From: an uncultured Lachnospiraceae bacterium
GTDB lineage: Bacteria > Bacillota > Clostridia > Lachnospirales > Lachnospiraceae
Reading direction: 5' to 3'
Assembly (NCBI GenBank): GCA_947630025.1
Contig: CANRFZ010000017.1
Span: forward strand, 1-64,000
Length of the DNA stretch: 64,000 nucleotides
In this document: in pieces, positions 8,051-63,957 of the stretch
How the letters are laid out: every line of letters begins with the position of its first letter
How positions within the stretch are numbered: the first letter of the stretch is position 1
The notes under the pieces: model-generated
What the model was told of the DNA's origin: nothing
Database searches by the model: none
The model's input: only the letters and a program-made list of their open reading frames with translations
Translations under genes and position numbers: made by a program

Positions 8051-9236
8051 TCATCAACGCCTCCGTCTGTCGATATGCGCTTTCAATAAAATCCGCCGCT
8101 CCAGACGCCCCGGAACAAGAACGGAAATCCGCGCTACACTCCCTTGCTGCCTCCCCGTATGCGCCGTTTTGCAGGACTTCCCGCACGGCTGCGCGGATAC
8201 CGTCAGCCGAATCGTCGGTGAGCATAACGCCCGCGTCCATTTCCGCCGTTCTTCTCGCCACCGCCCACTGCTCGCCCGTCTGTGGATACAGAATCATCGG
8301 CGCCGCCATATACAGGCTCTCGGAGACACTGTTCATGCCGCAGTGGGTAAGAAAAGCGTCCGCCGCGGCGAGAACCGCAGGCTGGTTAACATACGGATAC
8401 ACACTGACATTGTCCGGCAGTGTGCGGAACACATCGCTGTCCGCCGCCTTTTTACAGGATATGACGACGTCCACATTTTCCTCCCGCAACGCTTCGATGC
8501 AGCGATTGTAAAAGTCCGGTTTGTCGTATATCACTGTTCCCAGAGAAATATAAACGAGCGGCCTGTCTTTCTTTTTGTCCGGTTCGCTGTCGGAAAAAAC
8601 CGATGGCCCGACAAAGGCGTAATGACTGGAGAAACTTTCCGCATACGGCTGGAAACGCCGCGAGGTATAGACAACCGTGTCCGTTTCATTGTCGCTTTGC
8701 ACAAGAGACAACGCGCTCTTTACATGATAGCCGAGCGGCCTGAGTTTTTTCAATTCACGCGCGATCCGCGGAAGGCCGAAAACCATATCCGCCAGTTCTC
8801 CCGGCGAATGTTTCATATACCGCGAGGACAGTTGATTAAAGGCAAACGTGCTGGTAGATACTACCATCGGCACATGATGTTTCTGGGCGTTCAACCTGCC
8901 CCAAAAGCAGACCGAGTCCGTATATACGACGTCGGGCCGGAATGTCCGGAACTCGTCGTCCAGAAAAGCGTCCATGCGAAGCGTAACTCTGATATCCTGT
9001 ATCGTCATTTCCGTCGTGGAAACCCGTTTTAATCCGGCCTCCTCCTTCTGCGTCAGTGCGGGGAGATACGCATCACAGGATACAAATTCCGCGCCGGATG
9101 CCGCAATCTTTCCGGCAAATTCATCAAACGAATAAAACCTGACCGCATTCCCGCGTCTGACCAGTTCTGCCGCGACAGGAAGCATGGGATTGGTATGACC
9201 GTGCGCCGGAATACAGAAAAAGGCTATCCTTTTCAA
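8046..9236 (-). CDS. MGT-type family 1 glycosyltransferase
   Basis: A 396-residue GT-B enzyme of the macrolide glycosyltransferase type, expected to transfer a sugar from a UDP-sugar to a small hydrophobic acceptor in the cytoplasm. It shows PAHGHTNPMLPVA near the N-terminus and the donor-binding C-terminal block FLTHCGMNSVSESLYMAAPMI followed by PQTGEQ. The N-terminal beta-strand KRIAFFCIPA requires the upstream start, which is a TTG overlapping the stop of the AbrB-like gene as TTGA, so the two are coupled. Length is normal for the family (about 390-400). The acceptor is unknown; members detoxify antibiotics or decorate lipids. Confidence 0.88.
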   Translation of the reverse strand: MKRIAFFCIPAHGHTNPMLPVAAELVRRGNAVRFYSFDEFAGKIAASGAEFVSCDAYLPALTQKEEAGLKRVSTTEMTIQDIRVTLRMDAFLDDEFRTFRPDVVYTDSVCFWGRLNAQKHHVPMVVSTSTFAFNQLSSRYMKHSPGELADMVFGLPRIARELKKLRPLGYHVKSALSLVQSDNETDTVVYTSRRFQPYAESFSSHYAFVGPSVFSDSEPDKKKDRPLVYISLGTVIYDKPDFYNRCIEALREENVDVVISCKKAADSDVFRTLPDNVSVYPYVNQPAVLAAADAFLTHCGMNSVSESLYMAAPMILYPQTGEQWAVARRTAEMDAGVMLTDDSADGIRAAVREVLQNGAYGEAARECSADFRSCSGASGAADFIESAYRQTEALMI

Positions 9237-50070: not shown

Positions 50071-51696
50071 TTATTCTCCGCTTTCTTCCCCGCCTGCGTC
50101 TCCGTCCACAGTTTCTTCCGCGTCCGACGCGGACTCATCCGGCACGTCGATGTACTCCTCCTCGTAGGCTTCGCCCGTCACCTGCGCCATGATCTGTTCG
50201 GACAACGCTTTTAAGTCGGCGTTGGCGTCCTCGCCGTCCCAGATCTTTGCAAAGGCGATCTCCAGCTCCACCCAGAAGTTGCTCGTCTCGATCATCTTCG
50301 GCATCGGAACGGAATCGTCGTATTCCTCCAGAAAAGCCGCCTTGTTGGGATCGTCGTAAGTGTCGCCGCTGTCACAGATGGGCAGCTTGCCTGTCCTTGC
50401 GTAGAGACTGTCCGTGGCGTATTCCGTCAGGAACACCGCGAACTCATTGGCCATCTCCTTCTGCGTGGAATAGCCGTTGACCACGACGCACTGTGTCACC
50501 GACAGAGACGCGGAGCGCAGCTCGCCGCTCACGTTCGGCATTTTCGAGATGCCGTAATCGAAGTCAAAGCCGCCTTCCGCCTTGGCCTGCTCGATCCGTG
50601 ACAGGGCATCCGTGGTGGCCACGGTATACACGATCTTGCCGTCCATAAAGTCCTGCAGGACGCCGTCGTAGCTGATCTCCTTCGTATCGATGGAAAAGAA
50701 CTGGTTCAGGTTCTGGTACACCTTGAGGCAGCGGATCGCATCCTCCGTATAGATATGGATGGAATCCGTCATATCGCCGTTCACGCCGCCTACGTCTATG
50801 GCATTTCCCACGAAGAAATAGTTATAAAAAATATCCGACACATCCCATTTAAAGACCGCCTCCACCTGCTCCGGCGCGTCGTATGTGTCCGCAAAAGTGA
50901 GGATATCGTCTATCGTCTCGGGCAGAATCTCCTCCACCCGCTGCAGCACCGCTTCGTCCGTGACCGCGCCGTCTCCGGCCTCATCCGCCGCCGCGCCGTC
51001 CGCACTGCCGTCTCCCGCACCCGTGTCAGCCGCGTCCGCACCGCCCGCGTTTCCGCCGCCCGCGTTTCCGCCGTCCGCGTTATCCGCACTGTCCGCACCG
51101 TCGTCCGCGTCGATCTGCCGCTGCGCCTCCTCGCCTTCCTGCGCGTCACGCTCCGCCTCGATCTGCGCCCGCGCCCAGTCTTTCAGATAAGTCTCGTTAT
51201 AGAGGAAGCAGCTCGTCTCGAAGTAAAAAGGATAGCCGATGAGTTTGTCCTGATAAGTGACCGCGCGTACCGCCGTCTCCGGGAAAACGTCCTGCAGCGG
51301 CGCGACCTGCTCCGGCAGGGCCACCCGCGAGGCCAGCCCCGCCAGATACGCCTTTTCCAGAGAATCGTTTCCCACGATATACAGATCCGGCGTTTCGTCC
51401 CCCTGCAGGGACGCCTGGCTGATCGTCTCCAGATATTCCCGCCCGGACGTGTATACCGGCATCACGCGCACGTCGTCCTGATATTCGCTGTAGGCCACCG
51501 CCACACTGTTCAGATAGTCTGTCAGCGCCTCGTCGGTATACCAGAGGTACAGCGTATCGCGGTGTCCGAACACCACATTTTCCTCGGCTTCTTCCTCAAC
51601 AGGCTCCACCGTAACGCCCAGCCTGCCGAGCCCGTATATTCCACCTACACACAATGCGATCACGAGGATCGTAAGCAGTCTTTTCTTCAGAGTCAC
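50071..51696 (-). CDS. Membrane-anchored family 1 solute-binding protein, orphan
   Basis: The 541-residue protein has one N-terminal hydrophobic segment (LLTILVIALCVGGIYGLG) without a convincing lipobox, then a family 1 type binding fold (TLYLWYTDEALTDYLNSVAVAYSEYQDD; GDETPDLYIVGND; DGKIVYTVATTDALSRIEQ). A low-complexity Asp/Ala/Gly-rich insertion (about 195-245) interrupts the fold. There is no permease or ATPase beside it; upstream is argD and downstream a DMT transporter. It may serve a shared transporter or act as a sensor. A terminator follows at 49927-49957. Confidence 0.8.
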   Translation of the reverse strand: MTLKKRLLTILVIALCVGGIYGLGRLGVTVEPVEEEAEENVVFGHRDTLYLWYTDEALTDYLNSVAVAYSEYQDDVRVMPVYTSGREYLETISQASLQGDETPDLYIVGNDSLEKAYLAGLASRVALPEQVAPLQDVFPETAVRAVTYQDKLIGYPFYFETSCFLYNETYLKDWARAQIEAERDAQEGEEAQRQIDADDGADSADNADGGNAGGGNAGGADAADTGAGDGSADGAAADEAGDGAVTDEAVLQRVEEILPETIDDILTFADTYDAPEQVEAVFKWDVSDIFYNYFFVGNAIDVGGVNGDMTDSIHIYTEDAIRCLKVYQNLNQFFSIDTKEISYDGVLQDFMDGKIVYTVATTDALSRIEQAKAEGGFDFDYGISKMPNVSGELRSASLSVTQCVVVNGYSTQKEMANEFAVFLTEYATDSLYARTGKLPICDSGDTYDDPNKAAFLEEYDDSVPMPKMIETSNFWVELEIAFAKIWDGEDANADLKALSEQIMAQVTGEAYEEEYIDVPDESASDAEETVDGDAGGEESGE

Positions 51697-55331: not shown

Positions 55332-55787
55332 TCATAATTTATTAAAAGCCGTGATATTTTCCTCATTCAGCGTAAAATCATAATAATTCAGGTCTTCCCG
55401 CCTCGTCCAGCCGATCCGCCGCCAGAAGGCGTTGCCGATATCGTTGGCGGTAAAGGCGATCAGCGACACTTTGTTGATCTTTTCTTTCTTCAGCGCCTCC
55501 ATGCAGTACACCACCATCGCCTTGCCGATGCCGTGCATACGGTACTGCTCCGCCACGCACACATGGTACAGGCAGCCGCGCCTGCCGTCGTGCCCGCACA
55601 GGATCGCGCCCACGATCCGCTGATCGTCCACGGCCACCACGCTGGCGCCGGGATTCCTCCTGAGGAACCGTTCCACGCCCTCCCGCGAGTCGTCTATGCT
55701 CCTGATGGCAAAGCCTTTGATGGAAAGCCAGAGCGCTTTCACGCCGTCGTAATCTTCTGTTGTCATCGGTCGGATCAGTGCCGTCAT
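55332..55787 (-). CDS. GNAT N-acetyltransferase leading the arginine operon
   Basis: The 151-residue GNAT protein has IRPMTTEDYDGVKALWLSI, VVAVDDQRIVGAILCGHDGRRG, and the acetyl-CoA loop CVAEQYRMHGIGKAMV. It is the first gene after the ARG-box promoter and lies 124 bases ahead of argJ. By position it could be an N-acetylglutamate synthase of the short GNAT type; this is inference, because its substrate cannot be read and ArgJ may already provide that activity. Confidence 0.82.
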   Translation of the reverse strand: MTALIRPMTTEDYDGVKALWLSIKGFAIRSIDDSREGVERFLRRNPGASVVAVDDQRIVGAILCGHDGRRGCLYHVCVAEQYRMHGIGKAMVVYCMEALKKEKINKVSLIAFTANDIGNAFWRRIGWTRREDLNYYDFTLNEENITAFNKL

Positions 55788-56116: not shown

Positions 56117-58519
56117 TTACCATTCCTCCACCAGTTGGTCTTCCTCCCAGACGCCGATCGACACCTTGCCGTCGCTATTCACTTCGAAGCCGGGGCCGTT
56201 CCGTTTGGAACCCTGCCAGTGCGAGACGAGATATCCGCCGTTCTCAAAATAGTAAAAGGCATACCCGGTATATCCGCCATCCTGCGATTCACCCAGATAA
56301 TAACTTCCGCCGCCGCCATTTCTGTTATAGCCATAGGCAAATTTGCCGCCGCTGAACAATCCGACCAGCAATCCGCCGTCGCTTTTGTTCACATAGCCGA
56401 AGCCTTCCGGCGTACCGTCGGACGACACCTGTCCGTAATACTCCCCGACGTCGAGCTGGACTGTCTGTATATCCGCGCTTTCGGTGCATTCCCCGTCCGC
56501 AAAGGTCCCGCACGCATACGAACCGTCCGCGAAACTGATTTTGATGCCCTGTCCGTTCAGCGCACCCTCCTCAAAATAACCGACACACAACGCTTTGTCC
56601 GCATCGTCAAAGCTAAAAGTGGCGCCCAGTCCGGACAGTTTAGAATTAGAATCTGATCCTTCTCCGAACTCTCCGATTTTGATTGATGTCACTTCTCCGT
56701 CCTCTCCGCGGTTCACATTAGCGCCCTGCCCTTTTATCTTATCATCCTGCCACTGGCCTGTCCATAGCGAGCCACCCTTAAAGACATAAGTGCCGCTGCC
56801 GCCCCTTATATTATCCTGATACTCTCCTTTATAATAATCGCCGTTGACATAAGTCCTCGTTCCCTGTCCTTTTTGATCAGCCACCCATGTGCCGTCATAG
56901 ACAGAGCCGTCGGCATAGGTACATTTCCCCTGTCCTTCTCTCTGATCGGCCTTCCATTCACCCTCATAGACAGAGCCGTCGGCATAGGTCATCGTTCCCT
57001 GTCCTTCTCTCTGATCAGCCACCCATGCGCCGTCGTAGACATCGCCGCCGGCATAAGTCATCGTTCCCTGTCCTTCTTTGCAGTCGGCTGCCCATGCGCC
57101 GTCGTAGACGTCGCCATTGGCATAGGTCATGACACCCTTTTCTCCTTCCCGCTGGCCCGCCGCAAACGCACCGTCGTAGACATCGCCGTTGGCATACTTC
57201 CATGTTCCTCGTCCGTCGGGCTGATCGGCTTTCCATGAGCCGTCATAGACAGAGCCGTCGGCATAGGTGCACTTGCCCTGCCCCTCGCGCTGGCCGTCCT
57301 GCCATGCGCCCTCGTAGACATCGCCGTTGGCGTAGGTCATCGTGCCGCTTCCCTCCGGCTTGCCGTCGCGCTGACTGCCTTCATAGACGTCGCCGTCGTC
57401 CGCCTGTGCGCCGTCCTCATCGGTCGATCCGCCGTCCTCATCGCTCTGCGTATCCTCCGACCGCGCCATATCGTCGTCGCCCGAGCTGCTGCCGATGACC
57501 GCAAAGAAGATGATAATCATCAGCACCGCCGCCCCGATCGCGGCGAAGATTGCGATTTTCTTTTTGGACTTCCCGCCCGATGCCTGCGGCTCGACTTCCT
57601 GCACCGTCACCGGATTGTCAAACGTGAACACCACCGGAGCGCTGCCGTCGGGAGCGGGTGTTCCCTGCATCTCCGCGCTCTGCGCATCCTGCGCCGTGGC
57701 TGCCGCATCCGCATTGTCCGCGTCCGTCCCCTGCGCCGTCTGTGTCTGTGCATCCGCGCCCTGTACGCCCTGCGCCGCGGCTGCCGCATTTGCATTGTCC
57801 GCGCTTTGGTACTGCGGCGCAAACGGCGTCCCCGCAGGCAGAACCAGCGAGGGATCAAATACCCGATTGCTGATCGAAGCCACGGTATACCGGATGGAAT
57901 TTAAGTCGTTGATCGACTTTCTGTTCACCGAAGCGTCGCGGAAGAAGTTGATAAAGGCGTCGGACAGGTCGTACTTGGATAGCGCATCCTGCTCCACCAG
58001 CGTGGACAGACTCGTGTAGGCGGATTTCATCGCCCGCATGATGTCGTTGGACGTATTGTTGATATTCGTGATCATGTTCGCGCCCTGATTCAGTATCTCG
58101 TTCTTAGCCCCGCGCTCGATCACCGGCTGATCCGTCGTGTCGCCCAGACGCAGTCCCTGCTCCAGCGATACGAATACGATCTGCTTCCTGCTGTTGACCG
58201 CGGTGAGCAGCTCCAGAAAGCAGGCGTAGCTCTCTATGTAGCTCTGGCTGACGAACGCTATGACCACTTCGGCGCCGCGGATGTTGCGCAGCATCGGCAC
58301 GATCCACTTGTCGTTTACCTTGTCGAACGCCTTGTCCGCGTACACTCTCATACCGTACTGTTTCTGCAGCGGCACTACCGCGGATTTGAATACCGTCTCC
58401 CAGTTGTCGCTGGCGTAGCTGATGAAAACATAGGGCTGATACTGGGAACACTCCGTGATTACCAGATTGTGTTCCAGATATTCCGCCCGTTCCTGCCTTT
58501 GGTGTGCATTTAAAGCCAT
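56117..58519 (-). CDS. TIR domain-transmembrane-MORN repeat protein
   Basis: The 800-residue protein has an N-terminal TIR-like domain (FISY at 32-35; WIVPMLRNIRGAEVVIAFVS; a candidate catalytic Glu103 in SYACFLEL), a helical region, an Ala/Gln/Asp-rich linker (240-310), one membrane helix (321-343) preceded by KSKKK, an acidic spacer, and at least ten MORN repeats of GDVYDGAWxADQREGQGTMTYA type from 377, with decayed repeats to the C-terminus. By the positive-inside rule the TIR is cytosolic and the MORN part is outside. Many bacterial TIR domains cleave NAD+ in defence. The ATG at 58519 is used. The RyR-like gene lies 53 bases upstream. Confidence 0.85.
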   Translation of the reverse strand: MALNAHQRQERAEYLEHNLVITECSQYQPYVFISYASDNWETVFKSAVVPLQKQYGMRVYADKAFDKVNDKWIVPMLRNIRGAEVVIAFVSQSYIESYACFLELLTAVNSRKQIVFVSLEQGLRLGDTTDQPVIERGAKNEILNQGANMITNINNTSNDIMRAMKSAYTSLSTLVEQDALSKYDLSDAFINFFRDASVNRKSINDLNSIRYTVASISNRVFDPSLVLPAGTPFAPQYQSADNANAAAAAQGVQGADAQTQTAQGTDADNADAAATAQDAQSAEMQGTPAPDGSAPVVFTFDNPVTVQEVEPQASGGKSKKKIAIFAAIGAAVLMIIIFFAVIGSSSGDDDMARSEDTQSDEDGGSTDEDGAQADDGDVYEGSQRDGKPEGSGTMTYANGDVYEGAWQDGQREGQGKCTYADGSVYDGSWKADQPDGRGTWKYANGDVYDGAFAAGQREGEKGVMTYANGDVYDGAWAADCKEGQGTMTYAGGDVYDGAWVADQREGQGTMTYADGSVYEGEWKADQREGQGKCTYADGSVYDGTWVADQKGQGTRTYVNGDYYKGEYQDNIRGGSGTYVFKGGSLWTGQWQDDKIKGQGANVNRGEDGEVTSIKIGEFGEGSDSNSKLSGLGATFSFDDADKALCVGYFEEGALNGQGIKISFADGSYACGTFADGECTESADIQTVQLDVGEYYGQVSSDGTPEGFGYVNKSDGGLLVGLFSGGKFAYGYNRNGGGGSYYLGESQDGGYTGYAFYYFENGGYLVSHWQGSKRNGPGFEVNSDGKVSIGVWEEDQLVEEW

Positions 58520-58571
58520 GTTCTTTCCTCCCTTGTATCTTAAATTGTATCTTATTGCACTTTATTGTATC

Positions 58572-59945
58572 TTACCCTTTGCTTTTGGCTCTGATTGCCT
58601 CTATGTCCTTCCGCTTTTCTTCCTCGCTGAGCTGGTCAAAAGGCACCAGACAGTTGTGCCGCCGTCTGGCCGCATCCGTCTCCGGCGCGTACTGCCAGTT
58701 GTTGAGATAGTGGTATCTGCACCAGCGGATATGCTCCAGCTCCGCCAGCTTTTCCTCTGACACGCCCTCGCGCAGCAGGCGCTCCGTCACGCTCATATAG
58801 TCCGAGGAGCTGACGTTGGAATACCGCTTGAAACTGTTCAGCTGCTCCCACGGCGTGCCGCCGTATCTGCTCACATAATACTCGTGCTGCCGTCTGGCCG
58901 CCTCCATGGACTTCTGGTTCAGTATCATGTCAATGGACGCCATCTCTCTGGCGGTGCCGAAGCAGACCACGTTTTCCTCCCCGAACAGGCCGGAGATAAT
59001 GTCACCGTTGGGCGCATAGACATACACAGGATTCCGCACCGGCGCCGCCGCCAGCAGCCCGCTCAACGTCCCGATATTCTGCTGCCTGCTGTCGCCGCAC
59101 AGTATGATGCGGTCAAATGCCGCCAGCTCGCTATACGCATAGACGCCGTCGTCGTGGAAGAAGATCGCGTCCGGCTCCATCCGATCCAATTCCGTGTGCT
59201 CCCGCCTGAAGCCGCTGCCGTCGCCGTAGATATGGTACTCCATGTGCTGCGCGGGATCGATCAGGTTGACCTGCAGCCCATAGAGCAGGATGTTCTGTCC
59301 CACGCTGCCGAAGCCCACGATCGCGATCCGCTCGTCCGAGAGCACCGGATAGTCCCGCCAATACTGCCGCGCGCAGTTCTCCGCGATGCTGAATACGGTG
59401 ATCCGCGGGTTGGCGATGCTCTGCCGCGAGATGTCATTCAGCATGAGGTAAACGCGGGCTTTTTTCATCTGCTCATAATAAGTGCTGAAAAAGGTGATGT
59501 TTTTTACCTCGTCGGAAAACATCAGCAGATATCTGCCCGCGCCGCCGATAAACTTGTCTGTTCCGCGGATGCGGCGGCTGCGCGGCAGGCTCTCGTACAG
59601 ATACCCCGCGTACTCGGAGTCGCCGTATACCACGGTGGATTCCGAGGAAAGGAATTTTAACAGGTTGACGATGTCCGCCGCCTTATTGAACACGTTGACC
59701 AAAATGCTCAATGTGGCCGCCAGCGCCATAAATCTGGCGATCTGTAGCAGTACGCCGATCTCCACGCCGGACTCCGTGGAGCCGGAATAGAGCCGCAGCG
59801 CCGCATAGACGGCGTCCAGCAGCGGGAACCTGCGCGTCCCCTGCTCCTGAAACTGCGGATAATAGCAGCAGATACCCAAAAACAGCGGAATAATCTTATA
59901 AAATGTTTTCAGAAAATCTTTGATCTTCTGCAGTATCTTTTTCAT
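58572..59945 (-). CDS. Membrane protein with Rossmann-like region and C-terminal RyR-like domain
   Basis: The 457-residue protein has two hydrophobic segments (about 18-30 and 64-86), a first nucleotide-binding-like strand (TVVYGDSEYAGYLYESL), a clear Rossmann motif (IAIVGFGSVGQNILLYGL, Gly at 211-216), and a C-terminal segment (400-457) of RyR type: LAELEHIRWCRYHYLNNWQY, then NCLVPFDQLSEEEKRKD. RyR domains in prokaryotes recur with TrkA/NAD-binding and TIR proteins and are thought to bind nucleotides. ATG 59945 is used; a TTG seven codons upstream is possible. It lies directly upstream of the TIR-MORN gene. Confidence 0.75.
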   Translation of the reverse strand: MKKILQKIKDFLKTFYKIIPLFLGICCYYPQFQEQGTRRFPLLDAVYAALRLYSGSTESGVEIGVLLQIARFMALAATLSILVNVFNKAADIVNLLKFLSSESTVVYGDSEYAGYLYESLPRSRRIRGTDKFIGGAGRYLLMFSDEVKNITFFSTYYEQMKKARVYLMLNDISRQSIANPRITVFSIAENCARQYWRDYPVLSDERIAIVGFGSVGQNILLYGLQVNLIDPAQHMEYHIYGDGSGFRREHTELDRMEPDAIFFHDDGVYAYSELAAFDRIILCGDSRQQNIGTLSGLLAAAPVRNPVYVYAPNGDIISGLFGEENVVCFGTAREMASIDMILNQKSMEAARRQHEYYVSRYGGTPWEQLNSFKRYSNVSSSDYMSVTERLLREGVSEEKLAELEHIRWCRYHYLNNWQYAPETDAARRRHNCLVPFDQLSEEEKRKDIEAIRAKSKG

Positions 59946-60063
59946 TGGTTCTATACTCCATTCCAAACCGGGTGCGCGGATGATGCCGCCCGCCTGTGTC
60001 AGCCGCTAACCGCGGAAGACGCCGTCTGCCGTCAGTTGCAGACGCGGAGGATGCCGCCTGCCG

Positions 60064-62071
60064 TCAGTTGGCAAACATCGTCAGTCCCAGCATACCGGAA
60101 TCGCCGCAGTCTATGACATAGACGTCATTCTGATAGATATAGTCCAGCCACTCCTCCGAATCCAGATACTCGATGGGCCCCTGAAAATCAGTGCCGGACA
60201 CGCCGTTATTCAAGATCGAATTGGCATCTGCCACAAAAAGCGAATTGTTATTGGAGCGGCTGCTGAGCGCCGTCGTCTCGATCAGGAAATATTCCCCGGT
60301 GCCGGAAGCGTCTCTGCCCGATCCGTCCCAGATCTCCACCGCCACCTGCGCATGGCCCGTAGGCAGCAGCAGGAAAGCGTGCATCCCCGCGGACTGCAGC
60401 GCGCTGGCCACCGTCAGCGCCGTCTCGATACACAGGCCGCTGCCCTGATCCAGCACGTCCTCCGGCAGCAGAATATGCTGGTTGCTGCCGCTCAGGGAGA
60501 AGGGGTCCATATTGTAGCGGACGCCCATATCGTACATGGCCCGCATGATGCCCGCGGACTGCAGATACGTGCCCACATAGTTATTGCCCCATGCGTTGCC
60601 CTGATAGCCGACGAAGGCTTCCATCCCGCCGCCCGTCATATCGGAGAGCTCCGTGATCGCCTGACGCTTCAGCTTCGATACGGCCACGGCCTCCGGCGTC
60701 AGGAAACACAGAATATTGTCCTTCGTGACGACGCCATAATCTTCCGTGAACCACTCAAAGTCATACTTGCTCTTAATCGTCACCGGGAATGTCTGGACAT
60801 CGATCACGCCGCCGTTCTGATCCGAAATCGTCACGTTGATCTGGGCGTTCTTGGCCGACGCCAGATTCAGGTTGCCCGTCAGCGCGGGCGGCTTCACATA
60901 GATCTGCGTATACTCCTGTCCGTTCAGTGTGAAACCCTGCCTGTATTTCTGGGTAAAGCCCGGTATTTCCATCTCCACGATGATATTCCTGCTGCCGCTC
61001 AGACAGCCGCCTTTGATAATCAGGAAAGCGTCGTAAGTGTTGTAGAGCGAGGGATAGATCGTGGACGCCGGCTCGTACTGCAGCGACAGCCTGCCCGATT
61101 GGATATTGCGGAACGTGTAGGACTCGCGCTCCTCCTCGTCCATCTCCGCGTAGCTGCAGATCTCGTCATAGAGGTTATCTGACACTTCCGTCGCAATTTC
61201 AAGCAGGAAATTTTCTTCCTCTGTCATACACGTTGTCAGTTTGTCGGTCTGAACGCTGTCAACCGTATCGTAGCGGTCGGACAGATACCCCGCCGAAAAA
61301 TAGCGCAGATAATCCCCATAATTCGCCGCCTGATACATCTTCTCCACAATCGTGTCGTTCAGGTCGATGTTCTCGCGGAATCCCGCCCACACGCTTCTCA
61401 TGCTGGTGGGGCAGGTGTCCAGCGCATCATACCCGTCCCGCGCCGCCTGCGTCCACGCATTCAGATCCGTATAGTAGTCGTCAATATACTGATAATCATT
61501 GATATCGGGCCTGCGCAGAAGCGTATCGCCTTCCAGCGCAAAAAAGTCCCCGACAAAATTCATCATATCTGCATAGTGGGATAAAAAATTAGAATAAACA
61601 GAATAGTATTCCTGCTCGGCCTCTCTCATCTTGCGGTCCACGCCTTCCAGCGCGTCCACCTCGGCCTGCAGCTCCGACATATCCGCCTGCAGCGCTTCCA
61701 GACTTGCACCGCCGCCGGAAAAATATGCCGCGTAATCCGCCGCGTCCCAGTCATCCGGCATCTCCGTGCTGACTAGCGGCTCATATACGTCCAGAAACGC
61801 AGTGTTCATCCGGTCGATGTAAGCCACCACCGCGTCCATCGATTCCTGTGAAGCCGCGCCCGCATCTTCCGCGGATTCCTCGGAGGATATAGCCCCCCCC
61901 CACGTTCTCATTCGTCCAAGCGATGGCTCTCTCTACGCTGTCATCCTCCTGACTGCCGCAGCCGCCCACCGCAAGCAGCGCGCCGCACATGGCCGCCGCC
62001 AAAGACGCCGTGGCAGCCCGCCGCCGCGTCATCTTCCTCTCTGTCTGTACCTGATTCCGAAAGCCGCTCAT
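60064..62071 (-). pseudogene. Transglutaminase-fold lipoprotein, frame broken at G9 tract
   Basis: The N-terminal frame starts at ATG 62071 (GGGAG upstream) and encodes a lipoprotein signal with LLAVGGC as lipobox. At a run of nine G residues (61893-61901) it shifts out of frame with the rest of the protein. The second frame continues for about 600 residues and ends with a transglutaminase-like core: GLCIETAL (Cys), GHAQVAVEIW (His), EYFLIETTAL. Eight G residues would restore one continuous reading frame. So this is either a sequencing or assembly error, a phase-variable gene in the off state, or a recent mutation. The coding strength on both sides argues against an old pseudogene. A good promoter precedes it. 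Confidence 0.7.
61893..61901 (-). repeat. G9 homopolymer (possible contingency tract)
   Basis: Nine consecutive G on the minus strand, just after the signal peptide and linker of the lipoprotein at 60064-62071. A change to eight would restore the reading frame. Slippage here would switch the protein on and off. Confidence 0.85.
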
Positions 62072-62214
62072 ATTCTCCCTTTCCTCTGTACCTTCCGCGC
62101 CCGGCGCCCGCCGGCGCAGTTCTCCCCGGAAGCGACGCGCCGCTTCCCTCTCCGTTGATATGCGCATGACCTGAAACAACATAACGCATCATAATATGGC
62201 CACGCACATATATG

Positions 62215-62244
62215 ATTGTAATATACTTCTGTTCGTGGTGTCAA
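62215..62244 (-). promoter_or_regulatory. Promoter for the transglutaminase lipoprotein gene
   Basis: TTGACA (62244-62239) and TACAAT (62220-62215) are 18 bases apart, about 145 bases upstream of ATG 62071. It suggests the lipoprotein and perhaps the RyR and TIR genes can be transcribed separately from the genes further upstream. Confidence 0.65.
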
Positions 62245-62282
62245 TCCATAATTCAACAAGGCGGGGGTGGTGGCGATACAGG

Positions 62283-63263
62283 TTATTGAGACGCCTCTTT
62301 GAGGAGATCCAGAAGGCCATCCTTAAAAACGCCCTTGATTTCTTCCCATAGATAATCAGCCATCCCTCTTGTCGCACTGGCGGCGATTCCGTCAGGAGTC
62401 CTTGCATTTCCAAACGTTCCTGCCAACCCGCAGATCGTATCGAAGAAAGAAACGATTTCGTCTGCAACAGGCAGGCCTATAGCAGCATATCCTCGCAGTT
62501 CATCAATGGACGGTGTAATCCAGCTTACGAACATTTCAAATTCCTTCATCGGTTCGCTGCTTCCCAGCGACTCGAATCCCCGTTGTCTTTCTGTGGGATG
62601 ATAAATGCAGTCCGCATCCTGCGGAATCAGGAATCCGTTTTCATCCGGCTGCGGCGGAGGCGGATCTTGGTCTTCTTTATGGGAAAAGAGGGAAAAGCTG
62701 AATGTCGCCTCTGACACCTCCCCCTGTACTGCTCCGAAATTCTCCGCCTGTAGCTGCCCGGCGTCCTCCGGTTGTAATTGTCCGAAGTCCTCCGACTGCA
62801 GAAACGCCAAAAAATCATCCTGCCACCGGTCGACAAGACGCCCCGCAATCCGGGAGGCCGTCAGCCACTGGCCGACAGATAGCATCGCGGCCCGGAAGTT
62901 CTCCTCCCACTGCTCGGCAGACCGCATCGCGGCCCGGAAGTCCTCCTGCCGCTGCTCGGCAGACCGCTCCGCATCCCCGTCGTTCTTCTGCCCGATGATT
63001 CTTGCCTCCGTGCGCTGATACAAATCTGCGCTTCTGCCCAGCGCGGCGCTCATCGCGCCTATCTGTCCGCTCTCCTGCCGCATCCGGCTGCCTGCCCTGT
63101 CCAGAGCGGCTCCGATGGCATCCACCGCGCTAAGCTCGTGCCGGAGACTGCTGCGCACCGCTTTTACCTCGTTGTAGAGAGCGTCCAGCTTCTTCTGATG
63201 ATCTGCCAGTTGTTTCGACTGGAGATGCAGTTGTGTGACCTCTGCGTGAAATTTACTGCCCAT
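62283..63263 (-). CDS. Coiled-coil WXG-like protein, possible type VII secretion substrate
   Basis: The 326-residue protein begins with about 95 residues of helical heptads (LHLQSKQLADHQKKLDALYN; SLRHELSAVDAIGAALDRAG; IGAMSAALGRSADLYQRTEA) that resemble WXG100/LXG-type helical hairpins. A middle Gln/Glu-rich repeat follows (DFRAAMRSAEQ, NFRAAMLSVGQ; FGQLQPEDAGQLQ). The C-terminal region has EIVSFFDTICGLAG and ATRGMADYLWEEIKGVFKDG. No W-x-G motif is present. Its 5' end overlaps the gene upstream by 11 bases, so the two are coupled. It could be a type VII effector or scaffold; this is tentative. Confidence 0.6.
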   Translation of the reverse strand: MGSKFHAEVTQLHLQSKQLADHQKKLDALYNEVKAVRSSLRHELSAVDAIGAALDRAGSRMRQESGQIGAMSAALGRSADLYQRTEARIIGQKNDGDAERSAEQRQEDFRAAMRSAEQWEENFRAAMLSVGQWLTASRIAGRLVDRWQDDFLAFLQSEDFGQLQPEDAGQLQAENFGAVQGEVSEATFSFSLFSHKEDQDPPPPQPDENGFLIPQDADCIYHPTERQRGFESLGSSEPMKEFEMFVSWITPSIDELRGYAAIGLPVADEIVSFFDTICGLAGTFGNARTPDGIAASATRGMADYLWEEIKGVFKDGLLDLLKEASQ

Positions 63264-63957
63264 GTGTTTTCTCCTCCGCCTGTTTCATCCCATTTTCATC
63301 TGCCGTTTCTTCCTCCGCCGCCTGTTTCATCCAGTCGGCAAACAACCCGGCAAAATCCTCTCTGGTCGGTTTCACGGCCCACGTTTCTTCTGTCCGCAGG
63401 CCGAGCAGAATCTGCTCGTCGTCCAGATCCGCCAGAAAATACAAGCCGTTCCGCTCCTTTACCCCGGTATCTATTGTCATCAGCATAAGGACTTTTTCCG
63501 GCGCGTTCCACTGCTTCTTAAAATCGACATCCACAGTCGTCTGCTGGTTTTTATATTCCCCGACATGGCTGGTAAGCGCGCCCACCGCCATCTGCCAGGA
63601 CGGTAGGGCCAGCAGGTCATATTCTTCTTCGTCCTCGGACAGATAGACGATCTTTTTCTGCGCAAAACAGAAGACGAATCTGCGAGGCGGCGCATCTTTT
63701 TCAAAGCAGGCGCCTGTCAGGAACACCCGGCTATTCCGTACCGTTTGCAGGATATCGTACAGGGAAACGCGGAGCGCTATTTTCCCTTCCTCTCCGTCTC
63801 TGATATAGCCTTTCCGGGAAAGGCTCCCGCGAACCGCCTCCGGAGATGCCTTCTCTTTTTCCGCCCCTTTCGTGGGGATGCCCGGAATCCCTTCGATTCC
63901 TGCAAGTTCCTTTAAAAAACCGAGTTCCGCACGGCTCAGCCGGTATTTTGCTGCCAT
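63253..63957 (-). CDS. Possible ESX accessory (EspG-like) protein
   Basis: The 234-residue product starts at ATG 63957 with GGAGG upstream. It is mostly alpha/beta without membrane segments: YRLSRAELGFLKELAGIEGI, IALRVSLYDILQTVRNSRVF, FVFCFAQKKIVYLSEDEEEY, and a C-terminal REDFAGLFADWMKQAAEEE. This general pattern is seen in small proteins near Firmicutes type VII secretion genes that are compared with EspG chaperones; I recognise the style rather than a definite family. It is coupled to the coiled-coil gene at 62283-63263. Confidence 0.5.
   Translation of the reverse strand: MAAKYRLSRAELGFLKELAGIEGIPGIPTKGAEKEKASPEAVRGSLSRKGYIRDGEEGKIALRVSLYDILQTVRNSRVFLTGACFEKDAPPRRFVFCFAQKKIVYLSEDEEEYDLLALPSWQMAVGALTSHVGEYKNQQTTVDVDFKKQWNAPEKVLMLMTIDTGVKERNGLYFLADLDDEQILLGLRTEETWAVKPTREDFAGLFADWMKQAAEEETADENGMKQAEEKTHGQ

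Follow-up and report, generated by a model that had tools for sequence, protein, structure and literature searches.

A TIR-MORN protein and an RyR-domain channel-like protein as a candidate Thoeris-type pair inside an arginine operon of an uncultured Lachnospiraceae bacterium

Five consecutive genes lie on the minus strand, from position 63957 down to 56117, in a 64,000-nucleotide stretch of DNA (the window) from an uncultured Lachnospiraceae bacterium, and the question that they raise is which of them belong together and what they might do. The window comprises bases 1-64000 of contig C17 (CANRFZ010000017.1; 65,228 bp), and the genome is 2.6 Mb and 82% complete. An initial annotation had correctly placed the five genes, numbered 1 to 5 here, as same-strand neighbors and had proposed them as a candidate membrane system. 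The unit is genes 4 and 5, a channel-like protein with an RyR domain and a TIR-MORN protein, which co-occur widely elsewhere. Our favored reading, to which we assign a probability of roughly 0.55, is that genes 4 and 5 are a Thoeris-type two-gene pair in which an ADP-ribose signal made by the TIR domain opens an RyR-gated channel. This reading draws on sequence, a structural model and gene linkage, namely the domains, a channel/RCK/RyR fold, ligand-type residues and recurrent linkage to TIR genes. The two genes and their parts, with transmembrane abbreviated as TM and amino acids as aa, are as follows.

58572..59966, minus strand: gene 4, two-TM, pore-helix, Rossmann/RCK and RyR protein, 464 aa as listed (AlphaFold2, VIA-align, 79 homolog loci)
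59655..59951, minus strand: gene 4, membrane part resembling a channel, with helices at 6-42, 48-61 and 72-104 (model)
58947..59639, minus strand: gene 4, residues 110-340, Rossmann/RCK-like gating ring (model)
58575..58934, minus strand: RyR domain of gene 4, residues 345-464, with H412, W415, H437 and D454 (Pfam and model)
56117..58519, minus strand: gene 5, 800-aa TIR-transmembrane-MORN protein, predicted to sense and to make the signal
58157..58429, minus strand: TIR domain of gene 5, residues 31-121 (Pfam TIR_2)
57473..57565, minus strand: transmembrane stretch of gene 5, residues 319-349 (hydropathy scan)
56729..57394, minus strand: MORN repeats of gene 5, about residues 376-597 (placed from Pfam MORN and the repeat motif)

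In gene 4, the RyR family PF02026 was the sole Pfam family above its cut-off (residues 404-459, 43.2 bits against a cut-off of 27.4, 4.7e-11). An AlphaFold2 monomer model with a predicted local distance difference test (pLDDT) score of 92.8 displayed two helices, a pore loop, an RCK-type ring and a C-terminal RyR domain, and VIA-align aligned this model to CASTOR, GsuK, Slo1 and TrkA. The modeled fold is TM-pore helix-TM followed by a Rossmann ring, that of the two-TM K+ channel/RCK type, and conduction is predicted; the RyR domain of the initial annotation was confirmed, and its Rossmann membrane protein agrees with the model. Homolog alignments begin at residue 8, an ATG, which is likely the start of gene 4. 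The four residues H412, W415, H437 and D454 have the same spacing as the four ligand-contact residues of the phage protein RyDEP and of phage RyR sponges. According to the accessible part of PMC13232231, RyDEP contacts 3' cyclic ADP-ribose (3'cADPR) through H75, W78, H100 and D117, with H75 and D117 as the catalytic dyad, and six of eight tested phage homologs bound 2'/3'cADPR, all except RyDEP itself without cleavage. In a 79-row alignment of gene-4 homologs, H437 is kept in all 78 rows with a letter at that position, and the D454 column holds D in 68/76 rows and N in 8/76.

Gene 4 stands 52 bp upstream of gene 5 on the same strand. The TIR-MORN architecture assigned to gene 5 at the outset was upheld, with both Pfam families above their cut-offs (TIR_2, 38.1 bits against 28, 2.4e-9; MORN, 149.7 bits against 22.5, 3.3e-45). 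Residue E103 of the TIR domain reads as a catalytic-type Glu, and 54 of the 59 partner TIRs have E at this position. Pfam TIR_2 was found in all 60 TIR proteins scanned, that of the window included, and their C-terminal domains were varied, comprising TPR (13 for TPR_12), MORN (9), Sel1 (7), AAA_16 (7) and WD40-type propellers (3). At eight of the nearest loci the partner has a MORN-like form with one TM before the repeats, like gene 5, and because one TM precedes the repeats of gene 5 they probably face outside. When the same 60 proteins were scanned with PADLOC (E 1e-5), 12 fell near the SAVED-TIR model and 4 near the ThsB model; for gene-4 proteins PADLOC gave no convincing match (best E 0.0018 among 48).

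The linkage of the two genes recurred across gene-4 loci. Of the 79 loci, 55 had a TIR within 4 kb of the gene-4 relative, and at 39 it lay within 600 bp; 57 of 59 TIR open reading frames (ORFs) fell within 4 kb of gene 4 (545 kb of flank), with two beyond (645 kb). Gene-4 and TIR distances were correlated (r 0.67 over 48 pairs, r 0.52 over 33 distant ones; 0/5000 permutations each), three loci with several TIRs and five with fragments being left out. In a phylum-wide draw of 299 genomes, five besides the window's own matched the gene-4 profile, at full length in genomes G585 and G116; in G585 three genes follow one another, one with RyR and AAA domains, one for a TIR protein and the gene-4 homolog, and in G558 and G750 a TIR lies within 2 kb of an RyR gene. 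An Arcobacter plasmid carries genes for TrkA_N, RyR and DUF4062 proteins one after another, with a type I restriction gene nearby; the accessible part of PMC13174449 describes DUF4062 as a TIR-like NADase family and has no mention of RyR. Phage and plasmid records gave partial RyR matches only (3 and 2 records).

In the mechanism proposed for genes 4 and 5, the MORN part of gene 5, probably outside the membrane, would sense a disturbance such as phage attack, and the cytosolic TIR domain would make an ADP-ribose-type signal from NAD+. This signal would be bound by the RyR domain that the gating ring of gene 4 carries, and binding would open the two-TM potassium-channel-like pore; because the pore opens, the membrane would be depolarized, and the infected cell would stop or die. 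We infer the NADase activity, the identity of the signal, its binding, the opening of the pore, the anti-phage role and the outward position of the MORN repeats.

This arrangement follows the plan of Thoeris, for which the accessible part of PMC12847820 describes types I, II and IV, with SIR2, TM-macro and caspase-like effectors. As far as Thoeris is described there, a TIR enzyme and a signal-binding effector stand side by side, as genes 4 and 5 do (binding being predicted here), the TIR has a catalytic-type Glu, as in gene 5, and type II also has a membrane effector, like gene 4. The gene 4 effector differs from those of types I, II and IV, however, in being an RCK-type channel with an RyR domain, and the TIR partners of gene 4 differ in their varied C-terminal domains. 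Judged by their domains, genes 4 and 5 are filed as a variant of the Thoeris plan and not as a member, because they are without the effectors of types I, II and IV. The pair may already be covered by a newer Thoeris type (III, V or VI), and the accessible part of PMC13232231 reports a Thoeris type VI that signals by 2'cADPR. Literature searches, whose reach did not include the key 2025 preprint on type VI, found no description of a TIR and RyR-channel pair. Compared with RyDEP, which the same source describes as a phage product that clears the signal, the RyR domain of gene 4 is bacterial, fused to a channel-like protein and TIR-linked. The model of gene 4 has a pore-helix membrane part and a Rossmann gating ring, as do GsuK, MthK, Slo1 and CASTOR/DMI1, but gene 4 differs from these in having no TVGYGD filter and an RyR domain at its C-terminus. 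Animal ryanodine receptors (Repeat12 domain) are 5000-residue calcium-release channels, whereas gene 4 is of the two-TM RCK type with about 460 residues. An earlier suggestion that RyR domains of prokaryotes bind nucleotides as part of conflict systems is credited to Aravind and colleagues.

Further RyR-bearing genes were found at gene-4 loci, the first of which is as follows.

Locus L024 12376-14379 (the same as L094 1250-3253), and 16 further loci: HD/RyR-like protein, beside gene-4 homologs, often with a TIR

This protein of 660-810 aa, present at 17 loci at least, has a C-terminus resembling RyR and, at invariant positions, H, HD, H and D, a pattern that looks like an HD phosphohydrolase motif. 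Its likeness to RyR rests on BLAST and the gene-4 profile, and Pfam gave no family, RyR included, in the one such protein tested. At L025, a stand-alone RyR gene (8190-8525, 111 aa, Pfam E 2.9e-37), similar in plan to RyDEP, lies between a gene for a TIR-bearing 909-aa protein and the gene-4 homolog. The HD-RyR and stand-alone RyR genes may end the signal, and the HD-RyR protein is a candidate signal-degrading partner. Two other observations were made at related loci. A PD-(D/E)XK nuclease-family gene (PDDEXK_4) stands just before the gene-4 homolog at L024 (9455-10672; the same as L094), L079, L086, L092, L098, L099, L109 and L113; and loci L026-L032, from the same genus, hold potassium-type channels that have the TVGYGD filter as well as a Rossmann and an RyR domain and are unlinked to TIR.

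The five genes lie inside an arginine operon, because argC is upstream of them, filling the remaining 1.2 kb up to the contig end, and a GNAT-type acetyltransferase gene followed by ORFs reading as argJ, argB and argD is 3' of gene 5. The names argC, GNAT, argJ, argB and argD come from reading the sequence, without a family call.

55332..55787, minus strand: GNAT-type acetyltransferase, downstream flank (name from sequence reading)

A search with argC gave a match in 50 of 61 genomes and led to 30 loci, of which 26 were tested, the window's own included. Among the loci of the 17 nearest relatives (L137-L153), the gap between argC and the GNAT gene, measured by hand, was below about 100 bp in six and 0.6-1.4 kb in ten, and in one the GNAT gene was not seen; at eight more distant loci (L154-L161) argJ was seen and the GNAT gene was not. 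The ten gaps that were read, L145 not being among them, hold other ORFs, some of them dCMP deaminase-like or YbaK-like by eye, names that are unchecked. The argC-GNAT junction is a variable insertion point of the arginine operon. In the window genome the gap is 8.3 kb (window 55787 to L002 10087), so that genes 1-5 have the appearance of an accessory insertion at this variable junction. In the favored reading, genes 1-3 are separate cargo sharing the insertion site with genes 4 and 5. Elsewhere in the window, a lipoprotein of solute-binding type (by eye; 50071-51696) has a long low-complexity insert rich in D, G, N and A in mid-protein.

Genes 1-3 and the sites near them, the three genes being outside the conserved pair, are as follows.

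63253..63957, minus strand: gene 1, 234-aa protein of unknown family (Pfam, search of relatives and profile comparison)
62283..63263, minus strand: gene 2, 326 aa, coiled-coil-like, possibly type VII substrate-like
60064..62182, minus strand: gene 3, lipoprotein with a transglutaminase-like domain, split over two frames
61893..61901, minus strand: nine-G run near the loss of frame in gene 3
62215..62244, minus strand: promoter-like site before gene 3 (TTGACA, 18 nt, TACAAT; 11/12 matched)

Among 116 relatives searched, none of the 115 other than the window's own genome gave a match to gene 1 or gene 2. The description of gene 1 as ESX-like gained no support, as a comparison for an ESX-/EspG-like identity gave nothing usable (hhalign probability 0.2%, single sequences). 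Gene 2, described as WXG-like, had no WXG100 or LXG match in Pfam; what is left of that description is a weak 70-residue alignment between its N-terminus and two proteins encoded at the essC locus of the same genome (hhalign E 1.6e-4, probability 51%, one single comparison). This locus lies on contig C4, where essC has WXG100-like and LXG-like neighbors by eye, and on sequence a tie of genes 1 and 2 to the type VII system of contig C4 is possible.

Gene 3 was initially described as a lipoprotein with a transglutaminase fold. It is not a single open frame: a piece with a signal peptide and a lipobox (62182-61781) and a 615-aa piece (61911-60064) are in different frames, which part near the nine-G run, the sole G/C run of at least 8 in the window. 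Assembly error, decay and phase variation are the candidates for this change of frame. Pfam found no family in gene 3, not even in the transglutaminase-like region at roughly residues 395-530 of the 615-aa piece, and no solved structure matched it. The transglutaminase assignment comes from a match, far under the cut-off, of this region to the NCBIfam model NF058533 (ProA; E 1.6e-18, 65.6 bits against a cut-off of 1500) and by weak Pfam matches of gene 3 homologs to transglutaminase-like families. A relationship of gene 3 to ProA itself was ruled out, as the match is below the cut-off and only the transglutaminase-like region is in common; the ProA model has 1903 positions, and a literature search on ProA found nothing relevant. 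Searches with gene 3 gave one match in the 115 other relatives and nine in the 391 other genomes of the order. In two of these nine (G115 and G292) a longer part is common, including the transglutaminase-like region, and a helical-looking partner gene is upstream; in six, frames of 1,928-2,078 aa have only the transglutaminase-like stretch in common. The one of these six long frames that was scanned bears DUF4011, AAA and DUF3320 domains, its helicase and nuclease domains setting it apart from gene 3, and the weak match in G421 is within a run of genes that looks flagellar by eye. In the five of nine match loci that were opened, no gene-4 or gene-5 relative was found (by BLAST in four and by eye in the fifth).

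Altogether, these data bear on four other explanations of the locus. Gene 4 could be a brake that degrades or sequesters the TIR signal through its RyR domain, like RyDEP and its sponge homologs, leaving the TIR to act alone by NAD+ depletion; the histidine and aspartate that match the RyDEP catalytic pair are both present, and other RyR-bearing genes also stand beside TIRs. However, those other genes could take the brake role at some loci, in the model the RyR domain forms part of a channel-like gating ring, for which a pure hydrolase would have no use, the aspartate position is N in eight homologs, and most of the phage homologs reported in the accessible part of PMC13232231 bind the signal without cutting it, so that we consider a brake unlikely. 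It is also improbable that gene 4 encodes a conventional K+ or cation channel sensing NAD+/ADP-ribose metabolism via its Rossmann and RyR parts, with a TIR that is independent or uses gene 4 only for ion homeostasis under stress. Solved RCK rings do bind nucleotides according to their entry titles (NAD or ADP for GsuK, ATP or ATP-gamma-S for TrkA), and the seven related RyR channels with an intact TVGYGD filter (loci of 6-20 kb) all occur without a TIR; these TIR-free channels are nevertheless a separate group by their filter, as T-x-GYG was found in 0/75 gene-4 rows, and the TIR-less gene-4 loci (24/79) are set against the 55 with a TIR. Neighbors in a single genome would prove little, but adjacency by chance of a TIR gene and a channel gene is scarcely credible given its recurrence at those 55 loci and the position of nearly all TIR ORFs near gene 4. 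A five-gene type VII secretion-associated or surveillance module, the proposal of the initial annotation, is very improbable: five genes are adjacent on one strand, the genome has essC, and the N-terminus of gene 2 resembles proteins of that locus, yet the sequence beyond 64000, where secretion genes had been expected, is argC to the contig end, a good promoter-like match precedes gene 3 (the best of 13 such sites in the stretch, with 5.8 expected from shuffles), and a tblastn search (E 1e-3) of the 79 gene-4 loci gave no homolog of genes 1-3. The co-occurrence expected of five genes holds for genes 4 and 5 and not for genes 1-3, and what endures of a surveillance module with nucleotide-conflict domains is the pair, in which TIR and RyR co-occur.

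Several observations weigh against the Thoeris-type reading itself. The TVGYG selectivity filter is absent from gene 4, which has LYSGSTESG at that place, and among 75 homolog rows GYGD occurs once (L064) and N/D-Y/F-GD in 12. The conservation of H412 and W415 is no independent evidence, because both lie within the retrieval pattern for gene-4 loci and are conserved partly by construction, and D454 has its counterpart in the catalytic dyad of RyDEP, so that in gene 4 too this domain might cleave the signal instead of sensing it. PADLOC, at E 1e-5, gave no matching model for gene 5. The TIR profile was iterated from eight sequences, all from gene-4 loci, and may favor near TIRs; it was therefore checked with Pfam, which gave no TIR family among the 25 commonest, and so at most two, both in 100 of 251 far ORFs and in 110 of 316 near ORFs that the profile had not called. 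By this profile 24 of the 79 loci have no TIR. Four of them are on contigs shorter than 6 kb (L044, L069, L081 and L088), and L044 keeps a remnant of gene 5, the first 29 residues and the MORN repeats, with the TIR domain gone; at L067 a DUF4062 protein adjoins the gene-4 relative, and at L111 a DUF4062-type motif is 5.5 kb away. Other TIR-less loci, among them L036, L041, L054, L056 and L066, are surrounded by 21 kb of ordinary-looking genes. In the phylum-wide draw, G670 has a DUF4062-type motif only, about 3 kb away, and G116 has neither a TIR nor a DUF4062 motif at its two matches. The correlation of distances may partly stem from shared host ancestry. Finally, PADLOC on 110 of 316 neighbors gave mixed matches, generic ATPases and a few methyltransferases (one type III, E 2.3e-140), which did not show an enrichment of defense genes around gene-4 loci.

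A wider reading is put forward more tentatively, at somewhat less than even odds: genes 4 and 5 would represent a widespread clostridial immune family in which swappable TIR/DUF4062 sensors make cyclic ADP-ribose that directly gates an RyR-domain potassium-channel-like pore, with HD-RyR and stand-alone RyR proteins as off-switches at some loci, and this would be a bacterial counterpart of the disputed link between cADPR and the ryanodine receptor. If true, a channel effector gated through an RyR domain joins TIR immunity, and phage RyR-domain proteins and bacterial RyR channels would compete for the same signals. The changing C-terminal domains beside a constant channel partner are a ready sensor panel for screening, and gene 4, if the reading is true, would offer a small bacterial protein for a clean test of cADPR acting directly on an RyR domain to open a channel.

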